The notes under the pieces are model-generated. The model had not been told where the DNA came from. It ran no database searches and saw nothing but the letters and a program-made list of their open reading frames with translations. DNA of 64,000 nucleotides. Origin: Halobellus sp. LT62. Lineage in GTDB: Archaea; Halobacteriota; Halobacteria; Halobacteriales; Haloferacaceae. The DNA lies in contig NZ_JAYEZO010000001.1 in NCBI RefSeq assembly GCF_037031285.1, forward strand, positions 186,001 through 250,000. The letters run 5' to 3'. Position numbers and translations under genes: made by a program. Shown one piece after another: positions 22,884 through 39,266 of this stretch (positions within the stretch are counted from its first letter, which is position 1; every line of letters begins with the position of its first letter).

Positions 22884-25709
22884 TCACTCGCCGTCCGCTG
22901 ATCGCTCGTTGAGTCGCCGTTGCCACTCTTGGACCCTCGTCATCACGTCGATCGGGGACGTTCCGTTCAGATCTAGCTCGTTCAACTCCGCGGCGATCGC
23001 TTCGACTTCCGGTGCGGTCGCGTTGCTGTCGTCTCCGGCGGCTTCTTCGGTTCTGTCGCTTTCTTCGACGTTCGTTTCCTCGACGTCGGCTGCGGCACCG
23101 TTTTCCCTGCCGCGAGACGATGAGCCGTCTGCGAGATCTGTGTCCTTACTGCCGTCGACCGCGCTCGTCGAGTCTGCACGCGACGAATCCGCGCCGACGA
23201 ACTGCCCGGCCGAGAGGTCGAACACCGCTTGGACCGGCTCGTCGCCCTCGCCGCCGCCACCGCGGGCTTCGATCGCCTCCTCGGCGCGGAGCCGCGCGAG
23301 CACGTCGTCGGCGCGGGAGACGACGGGATCGGGGACGCCCGCCAACTCCGCGACGTGGACACCGTAGGAGCGGTCGGTCGGACCCTCCTCGATCGTCCGG
23401 AGGAAGGTCACGCCATCGCTGTCGGCGGAGTCGCGGTCGCCGTCCACCGCGACGTGGACGTTCGCGACGCGGTCGAGGTGCTCAGCCAGCGACGTGAGTT
23501 CGTGGTAGTGGGTCGCAAAGAGCGTCTTCGCGCGCACCTCGTTGTGGAGGTATTCGGTGGCCGCCCACGCGATCGAGATACCGTCGTAGGTTGCGGTCCC
23601 TCGTCCCACCTCGTCGAGGATGACCAGCGACTCCGCCGACGCCGAGTGCAGGATGTTCGAGAGCTCCTGCATCTCGACCATAAACGTCGACCGCCCCTGC
23701 GCGAGTTCGTCGAGCGCGCCGACGCGGGTGTAGATGCCGTCGACGACGCCGATTGTCGCCGAACGCGCCGGGACGAAGCTGCCGATCTGCGCGAGCAGCG
23801 TGATGAGCGCGACCTGCCGCATATACGTCGACTTCCCGCTCATGTTCGGCCCGGTGACGAGCAGGAACGCTCTACGTTCTCCCATCCGGAGGTCGTTCGG
23901 GACGAACTCGGTCGTCTGCTCGACGACGGGGTGTCGCCCGGCCTCGATGTCGAGCGGGCCGGGATCGGTCAGTTCCGGTCGCACCCAGTCGTTTCCGGCG
24001 GCGTGCGTCGCCAGCGACGCCAACGTGTCGATTTCGGCGAGTGCGCGGCCGACGTCCTGCAGGAGCGCCGCGCGCTCGCCCACTCGGTCGCGGAGGTCGC
24101 AGAACAGCTCGTATTCCAAGTCGCCGCGGGCCTCCTCCAATCGGAGGATGTCCCGCTCGCGCTCTTCCAGTTCGTCGGTGACGAACCGCTTTGAGTTCTT
24201 CAGCGTCTTGATCTCCCGGTAGTGCTCGGGCACGTCGTCGGCGACGGACTTGCCCACTTGGATGTAGTGTCCGTCGGTCTTGTTGCGGTCGACAGTGACG
24301 TGGCTCAGGCCGTGTTGACGCTTCTCGCGCTCGGCGAGCGTGTCGATCCACTCCTGCGCTTCGGCGTGGCGCTCCAGCAGGTCGTCCAGTCCGTCGTCGT
24401 GGCCGCGGCGGAACAGCCCGCCCTGTCGGACCGTCTTCGGCGGGTCGTCGGCGAGCGCTGATTCCAGCTCCTCGCGTAGGCGACCTGCGGCCTCTCGATC
24501 CGGTCGGTCGACGACGTCGGCGAGCGGCGAGTCCGCTAGCGGCGATCCCTCGACGGCGCCGGCGACGTCCGGGAGGATCGCGAGGGTGTCGCGGACGGCG
24601 AGCAGGTCCCGAGCGTCGGCGCTGCCGGACGTGGCGCGCGCAGCCAGCCGTTCGAGGTCGTAGCCGCCGTCGAGCGTCTCCCGCACGCGTTCGCGAGCGA
24701 GCGCCGCCGACGCCAACGCGCCTACGCAGTCGAGGCGTCGGTTCAGCTCCCGTCGGTCACGTCGGGGGCGCGTCACCCACTCGCGCAGCAGTCTGCCGCC
24801 GGGGCTCGTCACGGTGTGGTCGATCGTGTCGACGAGCGTCCCGTCTCGCCCGCCCTGCATCGTCTCGGTGAGTTCGAGGTTTCGCTGGGTCGTCGCGTCG
24901 AGGTCGAGGTGCTCCTGCGTCTCGAACGTCTGCAGCCGCGTCATCGACGGTAACACGCCCGCGCCCGTCTCCTCGACGTAGCGGAGCGCTGCGCCCGCGG
25001 CTCTGATCGCGGGCTCCGCGTCGAGCCCCACGCTGTCTAGCGTTTCGCGGCCGAACTGCTTGCGGAGCGCGTGCGCCGCCCGCCCGGGCGCGAACGCGTC
25101 GGCCTCGAACAGCGCGACCGACGCGTCCGTCTCCTCCCGGAGGCGTCGGACGAACGCGTCGTCGTCGCGGGTCTCCGGCCCCGGGAGGATCTCGACGGGG
25201 CTGAAGCGGTACAGTTCCGAGAGCGCGTCGTCGGCGTCGGCGGCGACGGTGACGAGGAACTGGCCGGTGGTCGCGTCGACGAACGCGAGACCGACGTCGT
25301 CGGTGTCCGTGCTCGATTCCGTCCGGGAGTCGCTCTCGCCGCCGACGACGGCGGCGATGTAGCGCGCGTCGGCGTCGTCGGTTTCCAGCAGCGTACCCGG
25401 CGTGACGAGCCGCGTCACCTCGCGGTAGTGATCGCCTCCGTCCTCGAACTGATCGGCGACGGCGACGCGGTAGCCGCGCTCGACGAGCGCCTTCAGATAC
25501 GGCGTGAGGTCGTCGACGGGGACGCCCGCCATCGGGTACGACGACCCGTGCGAGGACTTCTGAGAGACTTTCAGATCCAACTCGTCGGCGACCAACTCGG
25601 CGTCGTCGGCGAAGAACTCGTAGAAGTCGCCGCACTGCATCGTCAGCACGTCCGCGTCGGTGTCGGACTTCAGAGAGAGAAACTGCTCGACGATTCCCTG
25701 CGAGGCCAT
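22884..25709 (-). CDS. mutS: DNA mismatch repair protein MutS
   Basis: 941 residues from the ATG at 25707-25709 (MASQGIVEQF). The mismatch-reading motif GDFYEFF is near residue 26, Walker A GPNMSGKSTYM near 625, and Walker B VILDEVGRGTATYDG near 700. Between the ATPase and the C-terminal helices (LNELDLNGTSPIDVMTRV) is a roughly 110-residue acidic low-complexity segment (about 800-910) not needed by the family. mutL is 28 kb away in this window. Its promoter shares the gap with noncoding element copy A on the other strand. Confidence 0.96.
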   Translation of the reverse strand: MASQGIVEQFLSLKSDTDADVLTMQCGDFYEFFADDAELVADELDLKVSQKSSHGSSYPMAGVPVDDLTPYLKALVERGYRVAVADQFEDGGDHYREVTRLVTPGTLLETDDADARYIAAVVGGESDSRTESSTDTDDVGLAFVDATTGQFLVTVAADADDALSELYRFSPVEILPGPETRDDDAFVRRLREETDASVALFEADAFAPGRAAHALRKQFGRETLDSVGLDAEPAIRAAGAALRYVEETGAGVLPSMTRLQTFETQEHLDLDATTQRNLELTETMQGGRDGTLVDTIDHTVTSPGGRLLREWVTRPRRDRRELNRRLDCVGALASAALARERVRETLDGGYDLERLAARATSGSADARDLLAVRDTLAILPDVAGAVEGSPLADSPLADVVDRPDREAAGRLREELESALADDPPKTVRQGGLFRRGHDDGLDDLLERHAEAQEWIDTLAEREKRQHGLSHVTVDRNKTDGHYIQVGKSVADDVPEHYREIKTLKNSKRFVTDELEERERDILRLEEARGDLEYELFCDLRDRVGERAALLQDVGRALAEIDTLASLATHAAGNDWVRPELTDPGPLDIEAGRHPVVEQTTEFVPNDLRMGERRAFLLVTGPNMSGKSTYMRQVALITLLAQIGSFVPARSATIGVVDGIYTRVGALDELAQGRSTFMVEMQELSNILHSASAESLVILDEVGRGTATYDGISIAWAATEYLHNEVRAKTLFATHYHELTSLAEHLDRVANVHVAVDGDRDSADSDGVTFLRTIEEGPTDRSYGVHVAELAGVPDPVVSRADDVLARLRAEEAIEARGGGGEGDEPVQAVFDLSAGQFVGADSSRADSTSAVDGSKDTDLADGSSSRGRENGAAADVEETNVEESDRTEEAAGDDSNATAPEVEAIAAELNELDLNGTSPIDVMTRVQEWQRRLNERSADGE

Positions 25710-25798
25710 ACCCGCACGAGGGCAGCGGGCGGATAAAACGCTGCGGTCTGTTGCGTACGCGGCCCGCACCGACGACGCGCGGCCCTCACCGCCGATAG

Positions 25799-25807
25799 TT
25801 TATATAC
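25799..25807 (+). promoter_or_regulatory. TATA box of noncoding element copy A
   Basis: TTTATATAC starts exactly 30 bases before GTGACGT (25829). The same box and spacing occur at copy B (37365/37395), and no plus-strand protein gene follows either one. Confidence 0.55.
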
Positions 25808-25828
25808 GAAGACGCGGCCAGCGTCCCC

Positions 25829-25970
25829 GTGACGTAAGCATTACCCCGCGTCGGGCCGCGGTTGCTTGGCACGTCGGCGCGGGAGACGATCGGCGACCTT
25901 CGGGGACGCGTCGTCGCGAGCGGGTGCCGGCTGTTCGCCAATTCGGGCCGACGAGCGACTGTGTTGTCGG
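25829..25970 (+). ncRNA. Candidate structured RNA, copy A
   Basis: A noncoding stretch between mutS and ubaA with a clear partner at 37395-37552. A 40-base core (25845-25884) matches copy B at 35 positions, and all five differences are transitions. CCCGCGTCG (25845-25853) pairs with CGGCGCGGG (25875-25883) around a 21-base loop. Loop bases TTGGCAC (25866-25872) can pair with GTGCCGG (25924-25930), a pseudoknot layout. GTG-ACG-TAA at the start rules out a short protein there. Transcription is inferred from the TATA box; it could instead be a DNA repeat. Confidence 0.5.
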
Positions 25971-25978
25971 TCACCTAA

Positions 25979-26031
25979 CCGGCCACCGTAGCGCTCTCAG
26001 CCACCCTGACCGGCCACCGTAGCGCTCTCAG
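25979..26031. repeat. 31-base tandem repeat over the ubaA stop
   Basis: CCGGCCACCGTAGCGCTCTCAG occurs at 25979-26000 and again at 26010-26031 (quoted in full it is 22 bases; key parts CCGGCCACCG and GCGCTCTCAG). The second copy includes the ubaA stop codon. It looks like a slippage duplication of the gene's 3' end. Confidence 0.8.
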
Positions 26032-26840
26032 TCCGCGCTGATGGTGCACGCCGCGGTGTACTCCACGTCGTCGATGGAGCCGATCGGATCGTCGCCGCAG
26101 ACGGGGCAGTCGGGGTTCCGCTGGTAGGGGACCGTCTCGAAGCTCATCTCCATCGCGTCGTAGAAGAGCAGCCGCCCGCCGAGCGTCTCACCGGCGTCGA
26201 GCAGCAGCTTTACGGCCTCCGTCGCTTGGATGCAGCCGACGGTCCCGGGGAGGACGCCGAGGACGCCCGTCGTCGCGCAGTCGGGGACCGTTCCGGGTTC
26301 GGGGGCTTCGGGAAACAGGCAGCGGTAGCAGGGGCCGTCGGGTTCGAGCGTCGTGATCTGCCCCTCGAACTTGTAGATGGCACCGTGAGCGATGGGTATC
26401 TCGTGCAGTCGGCAGAAGTCGTTCAGCAGATAGCGGGTCGGGAAGTTGTCGGAGGCGTCGACGACGACGTCGTAGCCGGGGACCACCTCGTCGACGTTCT
26501 CCTTTCCCAGCCTCGTCTCGTAGGTCTCGACGTCGACGTCGGGGTTGAGGCTCGCGACGAAGTCTGCGGCGCTGTCGACCTTCGGGCGACCGACGTCGTC
26601 GTCGCCGTGGATGATCTGCCGCTGGAGGTTGCTCCGCTCGACGACGTCGTCGTCGACGACGCCGAGTGCGCCGACGCCCGCGGCGGCGAGGTACTGGATC
26701 ACCGGCGCGCCGAGGCCGCCCGCGCCGACGACGAGCGCGCGGGAGTCGAGGAGCATCGCCTGTCCCTCGGGGCCGACCTCGTCCATAATGATGTGTCTGG
26801 AGTACCGGTCCAGTTGCGTCGAATCGAGTGAGAGTGACAT
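26028..26840 (-). CDS. ubaA: SAMP-activating E1-like enzyme UbaA
   Basis: 270 residues, MoeB/ThiF/E1 family. The ATP loop VVGAGGLGAP is near 37, the catalytic-Cys region PDCATTGVLG near 188, and two CxxC zinc pairs are CYRC near 172 and CPVC near 245. In haloarchaea this protein adenylates the small archaeal modifiers (SAMPs) for protein tagging and for sulfur transfer to tRNA and molybdopterin. No rhodanese domain is attached. Its 3' end carries the tandem repeat. Confidence 0.92.
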   Translation of the reverse strand: MSLSLDSTQLDRYSRHIIMDEVGPEGQAMLLDSRALVVGAGGLGAPVIQYLAAAGVGALGVVDDDVVERSNLQRQIIHGDDDVGRPKVDSAADFVASLNPDVDVETYETRLGKENVDEVVPGYDVVVDASDNFPTRYLLNDFCRLHEIPIAHGAIYKFEGQITTLEPDGPCYRCLFPEAPEPGTVPDCATTGVLGVLPGTVGCIQATEAVKLLLDAGETLGGRLLFYDAMEMSFETVPYQRNPDCPVCGDDPIGSIDDVEYTAACTISAD

Positions 26841-37364: not shown

Positions 37365-37371
37365 TTTATAT
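37365..37371 (+). promoter_or_regulatory. TATA box of noncoding element copy B
   Basis: TTTATAT starts exactly 30 bases before GTGATGT (37395), the same spacing as copy A (25799 to 25829). Confidence 0.55.
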
Positions 37372-37394
37372 CCGATGCCGGGACCATCGCCGCC

Positions 37395-37552
37395 GTGATG
37401 TGACAGTTACCCGCGTCGGGCTGCGATTGTTCGGCACGTCGACGCGGGACTGACGGCGACGTTCGGGAGGGGCTGGCTCCCGACGACGTCGCCGACGCTG
37501 GTGCCGACTGTTCGCCCTAACCGTTTCGGATCCAAGCGACGGTGCTACCGAC
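37395..37552 (+). ncRNA. Candidate structured RNA, copy B
   Basis: Partner of the element at 25829-25970. CCCGCGTCG (37410-37418) and CGACGCGGG (37440-37448) pair perfectly around a 21-base loop, the same loop length as copy A. Loop bases TCGGCAC (37431-37437) pair perfectly with GTGCCGA (37501-37507) downstream, while copy A keeps the same pairs through G-U. A shared 3' block GGTGCCGACTGTTCGCC (37500-37516) differs from copy A at one of 17 bases. No open frame (ATG-TGA at the start). Transcription and function are inferred. Confidence 0.5.
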
Positions 37553-37567
37553 TCCTCGCGACGGCAT

Positions 37568-37651
37568 TATCGTAGCGTTTGCAACTGATTTCCCATCCGA
37601 TCGCACGCAGTCGTGCGGGCGGGTGAGTGAAGACTTGCAAACGCCACGACA
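37568..37651. mobile_element. 84-base palindromic MITE, copy 2
   Basis: Gap-free match to the copies at 27318 and 50695. The left end TATCGTAGCGTTTGCAAC is intact, but the right end reads CTTGCAAACGCCACGACA and has lost symmetry, so it is probably immobile. It ends one base before the kae1-bud32 stop codon and sits just downstream of noncoding element copy B. Confidence 0.8.
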
Positions 37652-37652
37652 G

Positions 37653-39266
37653 CTACTGCGACGCCGACTGATACCGGCCGCGGCCTTCGATCTCGCGGAG
37701 CCGCGTCCGGACCTCCTCGTCGCCGACGGCGGCGTACCCCTCCTCGACGGCCGCGAGCAGTGGCTCCGCCTCTGCGGCCGTCCCGGCGACGCTCTGTTTG
37801 AACACGTGGAGGTCCATCGCTTGGTCTTCGACGTGGCCGGTGTGATAGCCGAGGCCGAAGTCGATGAGATACGTCCGCTCGTCGTCGACGCGGACGTTTC
37901 GCGTGGTCGGGTCGCCGTGGACGAAGCCCGCCGCGTGGATCGCTGCGAGGTGTCGGCCCACCGCGCGGCACCGATCGACGGAGAGCGCCGCGGCGAGGTC
38001 GTCGTCGCCGACGCGCTGGAACACGAGCGTTCCTGTCGCGGGGTCGACGTCGTAGACGACCGGCGTCGGGACGCCGACGCGCCGGGCGGCGCTCGTGAGC
38101 CGCGCCTCCGCGCGGGTGCGCTCGGCCCGAAGCCGGTCGTCGAGCGACGCGTGTCGATACGCCTTCGGGACGCGGCGCTTGATGACTCGATCGCCTTCGA
38201 TCGTCACCGTCGCCTCCGCGCCCCGGACCGTCCCCGACGCCGTCGGAGCCCGGACGACGTCCTCGTCGTCGCCGCGCCACGTCACTGGGACCTGATCCGG
38301 ACGGAAGTTCGGATCGACTGACGACTCTGCGATTTCGAGCGTGTCGCCCGCGGCGTGCATTTTCGCGCCCAACACCGCGATCATTCCCGCGTTGTCGCGG
38401 AGAAAGCGCGGCTCGGGAGCGTAAAACTCCGCGCCGCGCTGCTCGCACATCGATTCGAGCATCTCGCGGAGCCGCGCGTTCTGGCCGACGCCGCCGCCGA
38501 GGACGAGTTCGTCCGTGCCCGTCAGCGACAGCGCCCGCTCGGCGACCTCCGTCAGCATCGCGAAGATGGTCTCCTGTAACCCGGCGCAGACGTCCTCAAC
38601 GGGTACGCCGTCGTCGACGGCGTCCTTCGCGGCGGACATAATCCCCGAGAAGGAGAAGTCCATCCCCTTGACGACGTAGGGGAGGTCGTGGTACTCCCCC
38701 TCTGCGGCTCGCTGTTCGACCTTCGGACCGCCGGGATGCGACCAGCCGAGGTGGCGCGTGAACTTGTCTATTGCATTTCCAACGCCGGTGTCCATCGTCT
38801 CACCGAGGATTCGATAGCGGCCGTTGTGATAGCCCAAGAGGTGCGCGTTCGCACCCGAGGCGTTCAGACAGACGGGGGAGTCGAAACCCGACTGGTGGCG
38901 ACCGATTTCGAGGTGCGCCACCATGTGGTTGACGCCGACGAGCGGCACCGACAGCGACTGCGCCAGCGCTCGCGCGGCGGTGCCGACGATTCGGAGACAC
39001 GGGCCGAGCCCCGGGCCGCGAGAGAACGCCACCGCGTCGATGTCGGGGCCGTCAGCCTCGGGTGCTGCCGTCGCGGCCGCGTGATCGAGAATCGTCGAGA
39101 CGACCTCGGGGACCGCAGATCCCATATGCTCGGCCGCCTCGCGCGGGTGAATACCGCCGCTGTCCGGTTCGTAGGGGTCGGACTCGATGACGACCTCGTC
39201 GGTTTCGCTGTCGTAGAGCGCGGCACTGGCGGCCCAGGCGGTCCCTTCGATTCCGACGGTTCGCAT
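37653..39266 (-). CDS. Fused Kae1-Bud32 (KEOPS complex)
   Basis: 537 residues. The N-terminal Kae1 (about 1-325) transfers threonylcarbamoyl to A37 of ANN-decoding tRNAs. It has HMVAHLEIG metal-binding histidines near 112 and VLGGGVGQNARLREM near 255. The C-terminal Bud32 kinase (about 340-537) has HGDPTTRNVRV and YLIDFGLGYHTG. A fused form is usual in haloarchaea. It starts 34 bases after the S24e stop; the S27ae gene I would expect between them is not there. Confidence 0.95.
   Translation of the reverse strand: MRTVGIEGTAWAASAALYDSETDEVVIESDPYEPDSGGIHPREAAEHMGSAVPEVVSTILDHAAATAAPEADGPDIDAVAFSRGPGLGPCLRIVGTAARALAQSLSVPLVGVNHMVAHLEIGRHQSGFDSPVCLNASGANAHLLGYHNGRYRILGETMDTGVGNAIDKFTRHLGWSHPGGPKVEQRAAEGEYHDLPYVVKGMDFSFSGIMSAAKDAVDDGVPVEDVCAGLQETIFAMLTEVAERALSLTGTDELVLGGGVGQNARLREMLESMCEQRGAEFYAPEPRFLRDNAGMIAVLGAKMHAAGDTLEIAESSVDPNFRPDQVPVTWRGDDEDVVRAPTASGTVRGAEATVTIEGDRVIKRRVPKAYRHASLDDRLRAERTRAEARLTSAARRVGVPTPVVYDVDPATGTLVFQRVGDDDLAAALSVDRCRAVGRHLAAIHAAGFVHGDPTTRNVRVDDERTYLIDFGLGYHTGHVEDQAMDLHVFKQSVAGTAAEAEPLLAAVEEGYAAVGDEEVRTRLREIEGRGRYQSASQ

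Follow-up and report, generated by a model that had tools for sequence, protein, structure and literature searches.

The bar minigenes of phage lambda carry a leader. Like the two-codon minigenes of E. coli they consist of a start codon, one sense codon and a stop, and the haloarchaeal RNA described here has the same arrangement. Such minigenes are the subject of Hernandez-Sanchez 1998 and Tenson 1999, both cited in PMC8012679, and AUGxxxUGA constructs in E. coli show what start-X-stop ORFs can do (PMC4965119). By analogy, engagement of the ribosome followed by abortive or one-codon translation would be the expected consequence. The hallmark of bar-type minigenes is that the engaged ribosome releases peptidyl-tRNA or that translation is inhibited. 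The haloarchaeal RNA differs from bar in its predicted 5'-terminal start, its variable second codon and a covarying pseudoknot where the edge of the ribosome would lie, and it forms a chromosomal multi-copy archaeal family.

Streptococcal csRNAs are several near-equivalent sRNAs under one regulator and are linked to DNA uptake. The haloarchaeal RNA is like them in its multi-copy near-equivalence, with no homology, and we know of no start-stop mini-ORF and no pseudoknot of such a kind in the competence csRNAs. In the Ups/Ced regulon of the Sulfolobales, pilus and DNA-transfer proteins are co-expressed (PMC11868833). The likeness is one of logic only, as the gene set and the organism group are different, and in the part of that account considered here no multi-copy RNA is described. 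For Haloferax, ribosome-associated sRNAs without coding potential exist, and rancRNA_s194 and the ribosome-occupied sRNAs of H. volcanii are likewise small, have no long ORF and make contact with ribosomes (PMC6104027, PMC12482152). However, rancRNA_s194 has 97 nt and is reported to be confined to H. volcanii (PMC6104027, PMC3956466). In the main texts of the open literature we found no description of such an RNA family and established no sequence link to the published H. volcanii sRNAs; an unnamed sRNA in a published Haloferax list may belong to it. Identity with H. volcanii IG1.7/htsf242 (HVO_1933s) was unsupported by the neighbours: in two Haloferax-like genomes we recognised no HVO_1934 (aIF2B-like) out to ~5 kb from the second copy.

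Copies A and B and the fold of the RNA

The window (the whole stretch of 64,000 nucleotides that was analysed) contains two copies, A and B, whose parts are listed in Table 1. A sequence-only reading had described them as a repeated noncoding element with a 40-base core, in which 35 bases match and only transitions differ. Direct comparison of 25845-25884 with 37410-37449 reproduced this, with 35 of 40 bases identical and every one of the five differences a transition. The coordinates also confirmed that TTTATAT (25799, 37365) lies exactly 30 bases 5' of GTGAYGT in both copies. A 38-base degenerate core matched only the A and B sites in the window and nothing in 100 shuffles. The similarity continues past the core, through a variable hairpin to the 3' block GTGCCGR-CTGTTCGCC, which pairs with the core loop. 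The ends first proposed, 25970 and 37552, are too far 3' of the RNA-like units given in the table; downstream of the 3' tail we found neither conservation nor a U-tract. The earlier statement that neither copy leads into a protein needs a qualification: there is no protein, and no protein gene covers the core, but GTGAYGT opens a conserved two-codon ORF. The names MutS and Mre11, like those of other unscanned neighbours, are our assignments by eye from the sequence.

Table 1. Features of copies A and B and of the genes flanking copy A (positions in the window).
Feature	Position	Strand	Remarks
Copy A TATA box TTTATAT	25799..25805	+	30 nt before start codon; spacing repeated in parsed own-genome copies
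Copy A regulon box GCGGCCA (consensus GNGRCCA)	25814..25820	+	common to leaderless protein genes
Copy A predicted ncRNA, 111 nt	25829..25939	+	R2 covariance model 66.4 bits, E 1.1e-12
Copy A predicted leaderless start-X-stop mini-ORF GTG ACG TAA	25829..25837	+	
Copy A stem 1, 5' strand CCCGCGTCG	25845..25853	+	covariation
Copy A conserved loop GCGGTTG	25858..25864	+	alignments A2 and A3
Copy A pseudoknot 5' strand TTGGCAC	25866..25872	+	partner 25924-25930
Copy A stem 1, 3' strand CGGCGCGGG	25875..25883	+	
Copy A variable hairpin 2	25885..25915	+	MFE fold; differs among copies, missing from short ones
Copy A pseudoknot 3' strand GTGCCGG	25924..25930	+	99.5% pairing in alignment A2
Copy A conserved 3' tail CTGTTCGCC	25931..25939	+	class-wide conservation
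Copy B TATA box TTTATAT	37365..37371	+	
Copy B regulon box GGGACCA	37380..37386	+	
Copy B predicted ncRNA, 122 nt	37395..37516	+	R2 59.2 bits, E 4.4e-11
Copy B start-X-stop mini-ORF GTG ATG TGA	37395..37403	+	
Copy B stem 1, 5' strand CCCGCGTCG	37410..37418	+	
Copy B conserved loop GCGATTG	37423..37429	+	
Copy B pseudoknot 5' strand TCGGCAC	37431..37437	+	
Copy B stem 1, 3' strand CGACGCGGG	37440..37448	+	
Copy B variable hairpin 2	37454..37494	+	MFE fold, z -2.54 for whole RNA
Copy B pseudoknot 3' strand GTGCCGA	37501..37507	+	
Copy B conserved 3' tail CTGTTCGCC	37508..37516	+	
mutS, divergent neighbour of copy A	22884..25769	-	ORF
ubaA-like gene (name from the sequence-only reading), convergent neighbour of copy A	26028..26840	-	ORF

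Other repeats were seen close to both copies. Between copy A and the next gene there are two tandem repeats of ~31 bp (25980-26032; CCGGCCACCGTAGCGCTCTCAG...), and just 3' of copy B lies a palindrome-ended element of ~80-90 nt (37571-37655; GTTTGCAAC...TTGCAAAC), possibly a non-autonomous repeat of the IS200/IS605 type. A similar palindrome-ended element splits the GCGGT loop at the same site in the own-genome RNA copies L063, L070, L071 and L075.

In the parsed copies the parts follow one another in the order promoter, 5' nonamer, 9-bp stem, loop GCGGUUG-YYCGGCAC, 3' strand of the stem, variable hairpin and GUGCCGR-CUGUUCGCC. The predicted fold of the family is a conserved H-type pseudoknot, composed of the 9-bp stem and a 7-bp helix that the loop forms with the 3' GUGCCGR. 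For 59 sequences of the genus we observed pairing in 97.9% of the cells, with two-sided changes in 12 pairs and 56 cells; this covariation was matched by 0 of 500 shuffles and the slid controls collapsed. For 32 class-wide sequences 99.8% of the pair cells were formed, with 12 pairs and 77 double compensatory changes (0/500 shuffles). In copy L082 (C1:958349-958427) the pairing is intact despite an entirely different stem and knot sequence. The loop GCG and the tail CGC could pair in 96% of the cells of the 59 genus sequences, with no double change. The widespread form of the RNA has ~79 nt, and hairpin 2 is added in part of Halobellus and in a few others. GCGGUUG may resemble the 16S 3' end.

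The Rfam 15 scan of the window returned only 3 tRNAs, and a search with 5 member loci gave no match over the element at E≤1. A noncoding RNA element, as first proposed, is thus supported by the class-wide covarying pseudoknot, by a promoter at fixed distance outside the model and by the lack of an Rfam match. Box C/D RNAs have a C box RUGAUGA near the 5' end and a D box CUGA near the 3' end. We rejected this class, as the 5' consensus reads RTG-NNN-stop and the 3' end CTGTTCGCC has no CUGA; the absence of C/D boxes and of an Rfam match bears out the first impression that the element is unlike tRNA, SRP RNA, RNase P and C/D RNA. Box H/ACA RNAs have a hairpin with an internal pseudouridylation pocket and a 3' ANA, whereas here the covariation is that of an H-type pseudoknot and there is no conserved ANA tail. 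An IS200/IS605 TnpB omega-RNA, which would overlap tnpB or follow it, was also rejected, as we saw no tnpB among the immediate neighbours (by eye), which are housekeeping genes. The multi-copy structured RNA, found across the Halobacteria, and its architecture appear to be new and uncatalogued in Rfam.

Distribution and genomic context

The recurrence in two places is correct inside the window, but the family is much larger. BLAST with A or B as query found dozens of dispersed copies in the same genome, and the matches from BLAST, box and covariance searches combine to at least 43 loci on two large contigs, a lower bound by the way it was assembled; four of them have a loop insertion. A chance repeat of two copies is ruled out by the dozens of BLAST copies and by the shuffles (0/100). 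In the same genus 12 of 17 genomes had BLAST matches, 10-46 each, and 5 of 17 had none. These five (G011, G013, G014, G015 and G016) look AT-rich upstream of mutS; G014-G016 are RNA-negative by covariance model too, and G014 still has a DUF7283 gene with a recognisable box.

Covariance-model searches, which the sequence-only reading had proposed as a check, recovered a dispersed family across Halobacteriales genomes. Model R1 (RNA only) was positive in 122 of 392 genomes of the order and the broader model R2 in 224 of 391, representing 48 of 87 genera; in some genomes as many as 12 of the 12 candidates scored were hits. Limited candidates were scored per genome, so copy counts from these scans are lower bounds. 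The 24 genomes that were positive in a phylum-wide sample all belonged to the order, and a more sensitive rerun on 33 mostly negative genomes matched only two that were already positive. Among the carriers are Haloferax, Haloarcula, Halomarina, Haloarchaeobius, Halegenticoccus, Salinigranum, Natronomonas, Halorubrum vacuolatum and Halobellus. The two Haloferax copies lie at a Zn-protein/HAD locus and at a DUF63-like locus. A pattern match in Rhodobacteraceae (L137) has neither TATA nor stem and was dismissed as chance.

The copies are intergenic, amid unrelated housekeeping genes. The commonest arrangement was that of A and B, with a divergent gene upstream and a convergent gene downstream (19 of 36 own loci); it was also frequent in other genera. 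We found no common neighbour: some copies in Haloferax and Haloarchaeobius have what we take to be rtcB nearby, and those in Haloarcula a LigT-like gene, also named by eye, but neither is general. As the upstream neighbour is often divergent and only ~60-140 nt away, the element could be a cis element of its neighbours, i.e. a riboswitch, attenuator, UTR or bidirectional promoter. This is very improbable in our view, because A, B and 23 of the 36 parsed own loci are followed by a gene on the opposite strand, and because the neighbours are unrelated housekeeping genes. A riboswitch or leader would lie in the 5' UTR of a co-oriented gene and was rejected on the same grounds of strand.

Copy numbers from 1 to >40 per genome, the dispersed positions and the different neighbours in different genera would suit a mobile or selfish, MITE-like repeat that carries a promoter. 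However, for 26 of the 37 elements in other Halobellus species synteny with an own copy extends to both flanks and for 2 more to one, and 12 of 17 same-genus genomes have the element upstream of mutS, even where the other (ubaA-side) flank differs. Synteny of this kind between species indicates that the copies are not mobile repeats, and neither did we see the IS-like behaviour expected of a known insertion sequence, which had been named as a possible refutation. Another indication is that the copies are mostly only 72-85% identical and yet keep the promoter, the mini-ORF and the compensated helices, whereas a MITE would show near-identical copies at sites peculiar to each species. We therefore hold a mobile repeat to be highly unlikely.

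The comparison of the mutS-locus orthologues also bears on a possible family of antisense sRNAs, in which the variable parts of each copy would pair with mRNAs. The 7-nt linker and hairpin 2 do vary among paralogues, and sRNA deletions in H. volcanii show phenotypes (PMC3956466). Yet when the element at mutS is compared between species, neither the linker nor hairpin 2 is conserved, hairpin 2 is absent in six of them and only the common core is kept. As the orthologues retain no locus-specific part, the copies look functionally equivalent rather than target-specific, and antisense action is improbable.

A promoter shared with protein genes

The promoter consists of the TATA box followed by a GNGRCCA box at fixed spacing. 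The pattern TTTATANNNGANNNNGNGRCCA with at most one mismatch had 43 matches in the own genome, mostly RNA copies, compared to 0 for the reversed pattern. Seven box matches precede leaderless genes, at a distance of exactly 30 nt from the start codon; by Pfam these genes are DUF7310, a T2SSE ATPase, DUF7283, a PLD-domain protein, a small ORF, DUF7857 and DUF7382. The DUF7283 gene forms an operon with DUF7285 and DUF7284, and the small ORF is upstream of a gene which we take, by eye, to be Mre11-like. None of the 63 called genes of the window has the box. One RNA copy (L124, G032:C125) has neither TATA nor box, and a short palindrome 5' of it recalls an insertion-sequence end.

Across 35 genomes of the order the strict box occurred at 113 sites, compared to 0 in the reversed control. 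Of the 83 sites that we read, R2 identifies ~20 as RNA copies, and at 49 the box is followed by a leaderless frame that stays open for at least 60 codons. The recurring families are DUF7382, DUF7283, NucS_N with a topoisomerase zinc ribbon, PLD, DUF3006, T2SSE, TctA, DUF6735 and a Cas4/DUF83-like family whose match is below the Pfam cut-off; HerA/DUF87, ParA-like, archaeal pilin and HNH proteins were boxed once each. The box stands at the start codon of 26 of 30 DUF7283 loci and 18 of 30 PLD loci. At the level of sequence, the RNA and the pilus and DNA-processing genes share one promoter. The usual haloarchaeal promoter comprises BRE, TATA and a WW -10 element (PMC4983044), so the combination of TATA and GNGRCCA looks like a distinct class.

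We also compared the occurrence of the RNA with that of the DUF7283 operon: the RNA was present in 28 of 38 genomes with the operon compared to 2 of 21 (Fisher 1.9e-6, uncorrected for phylogeny), and the remaining 10 of 38 have the pilus-like operon and no detectable RNA. Judging by the gene families the regulon may be concerned with DNA uptake, exchange or repair. The promoter box reveals a conserved regulon of type-IV-pilus-like machinery, surface and repair nucleases and the RNA, and offers a handle on how haloarchaea take up or exchange DNA. Two loci show boxes close together. At L190 (G000:C1:596785-603765) a type-IV-pilus-like operon of DUF7310, T2SSE, weak T2SSF, DUF7283, DUF7285 and DUF7284 has three regulon-box promoters within ~5 kb, and at L281 (G057:C2:259674-259731) genes for a HerA/DUF87 ATPase and DUF7382 diverge from adjacent back-to-back boxes.

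The 5' mini-ORF and its possible role

The conserved 5' nonamer reads as a start-X-stop mini-ORF. We compared 81 distinct class-wide copies, and in every one ATG or GTG stands at the model start or at most 3 nt away; the stop is codon 3 in 75 of them, codon 2 (ATG TGA) in 2 and codon 4 in 2, and 2 have none. The codon-4 stops follow in-frame, codon-sized insertions (L135, L147) and the ATG-TGA copies (L126, L373) keep the start-stop pair. For Halobellus we found the stop in 57 of 61 copies (58 with one shifted copy): TGA in 29, TAA in 14 and TAG in 14. Overall 131 of 138 copies have the start, the few sense codons at most and the in-frame stop of a bar-type minigene; the codon-3 stop in these 131 compares with 115.5 expected from shuffled columns, and it is missing in 7. 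TGG was observed at codon 3 once compared to 13.6 times expected (P<1e-4, 138 copies). A plain RNA motif would not shun TGG and yet allow TGA, TAA and TAG, which argues that the 5' end is read in codons. The second codon is variable. Of 142 distinct copies, 137 have RTG just where the first base is expected, and we infer that transcription starts there.

In most copies stem 1 starts at +16/17, i.e. 15-16 nt past the first base of the start codon. The 70S toeprint on 5'-terminal AUGs in E. coli is at +15 (PMC4965119), and by this analogy stem 1 would begin about where a ribosome bound at the start codon has its leading edge.

We give a probability of about 0.5 to the reading that A and B are genes of trans-acting, ribosome-engaging structured RNAs, co-expressed with the pilus/DNA-processing regulon. 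The TATA and GNGRCCA promoter stands at leaderless spacing before the predicted terminal GUG or AUG, and with the regulon on, many equivalent loci would produce the RNA. A 70S ribosome would then bind the 5'-terminal start codon, as with other leaderless transcripts, and would terminate after reading one codon, while its leading edge held the pseudoknot; the 5' end of the RNA may be ribosome-protected. The RNA would thus act in trans, as a regulator or decoy that retunes translation in the regulon-on state. If true, this would be a ribosome-engaging RNA built on the plan of leaderless transcripts, with a 5' end that is read in codons and yields no protein. A bolder form of this proposal is tentative: the 5' codons would be a ribosome dock, where the ribosome makes one peptide bond and stops while the pseudoknot sits at the mRNA entry, and a DNA-uptake/exchange regulator would run it from up to >40 loci, reprogramming leaderless translation.

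The chief rival is a protein-binding RNA with the mini-ORF as a mere safeguard, which we consider rather unlikely but the most serious of the alternatives. The pseudoknot with GCGGUUG and CUGUUCGCC would bind a protein, as its scaffold or decoy, when the pilus/DNA-processing state is on, the start codon being a by-product of a leaderless-gene promoter and the stop a guard of the fold against translation. The strong conservation of the unpaired segments beside covarying helices agrees with this, the equivalent copies suggest dosage of one product, and GUG is a weak leaderless start (PMC4983044). However, nearly all copies have RTG where the first base is expected, and the shifted ones retain the start-stop pair; were translation a mere nuisance, loss of the start codon would be simpler. 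Furthermore, in some lineages protein genes begin at TATA+31 instead of +30, so the promoter does not force RTG into one position.

The choice of start codon also bears on how strongly the ribosome would be engaged. Most transcripts of H. volcanii lack a leader, and haloarchaea translate poorly from a leaderless GUG (PMC4983044), so that engagement is expected to be inefficient but real. Among the copies GUG is commoner than AUG, and this excess fits weak engagement better than an efficient trap.
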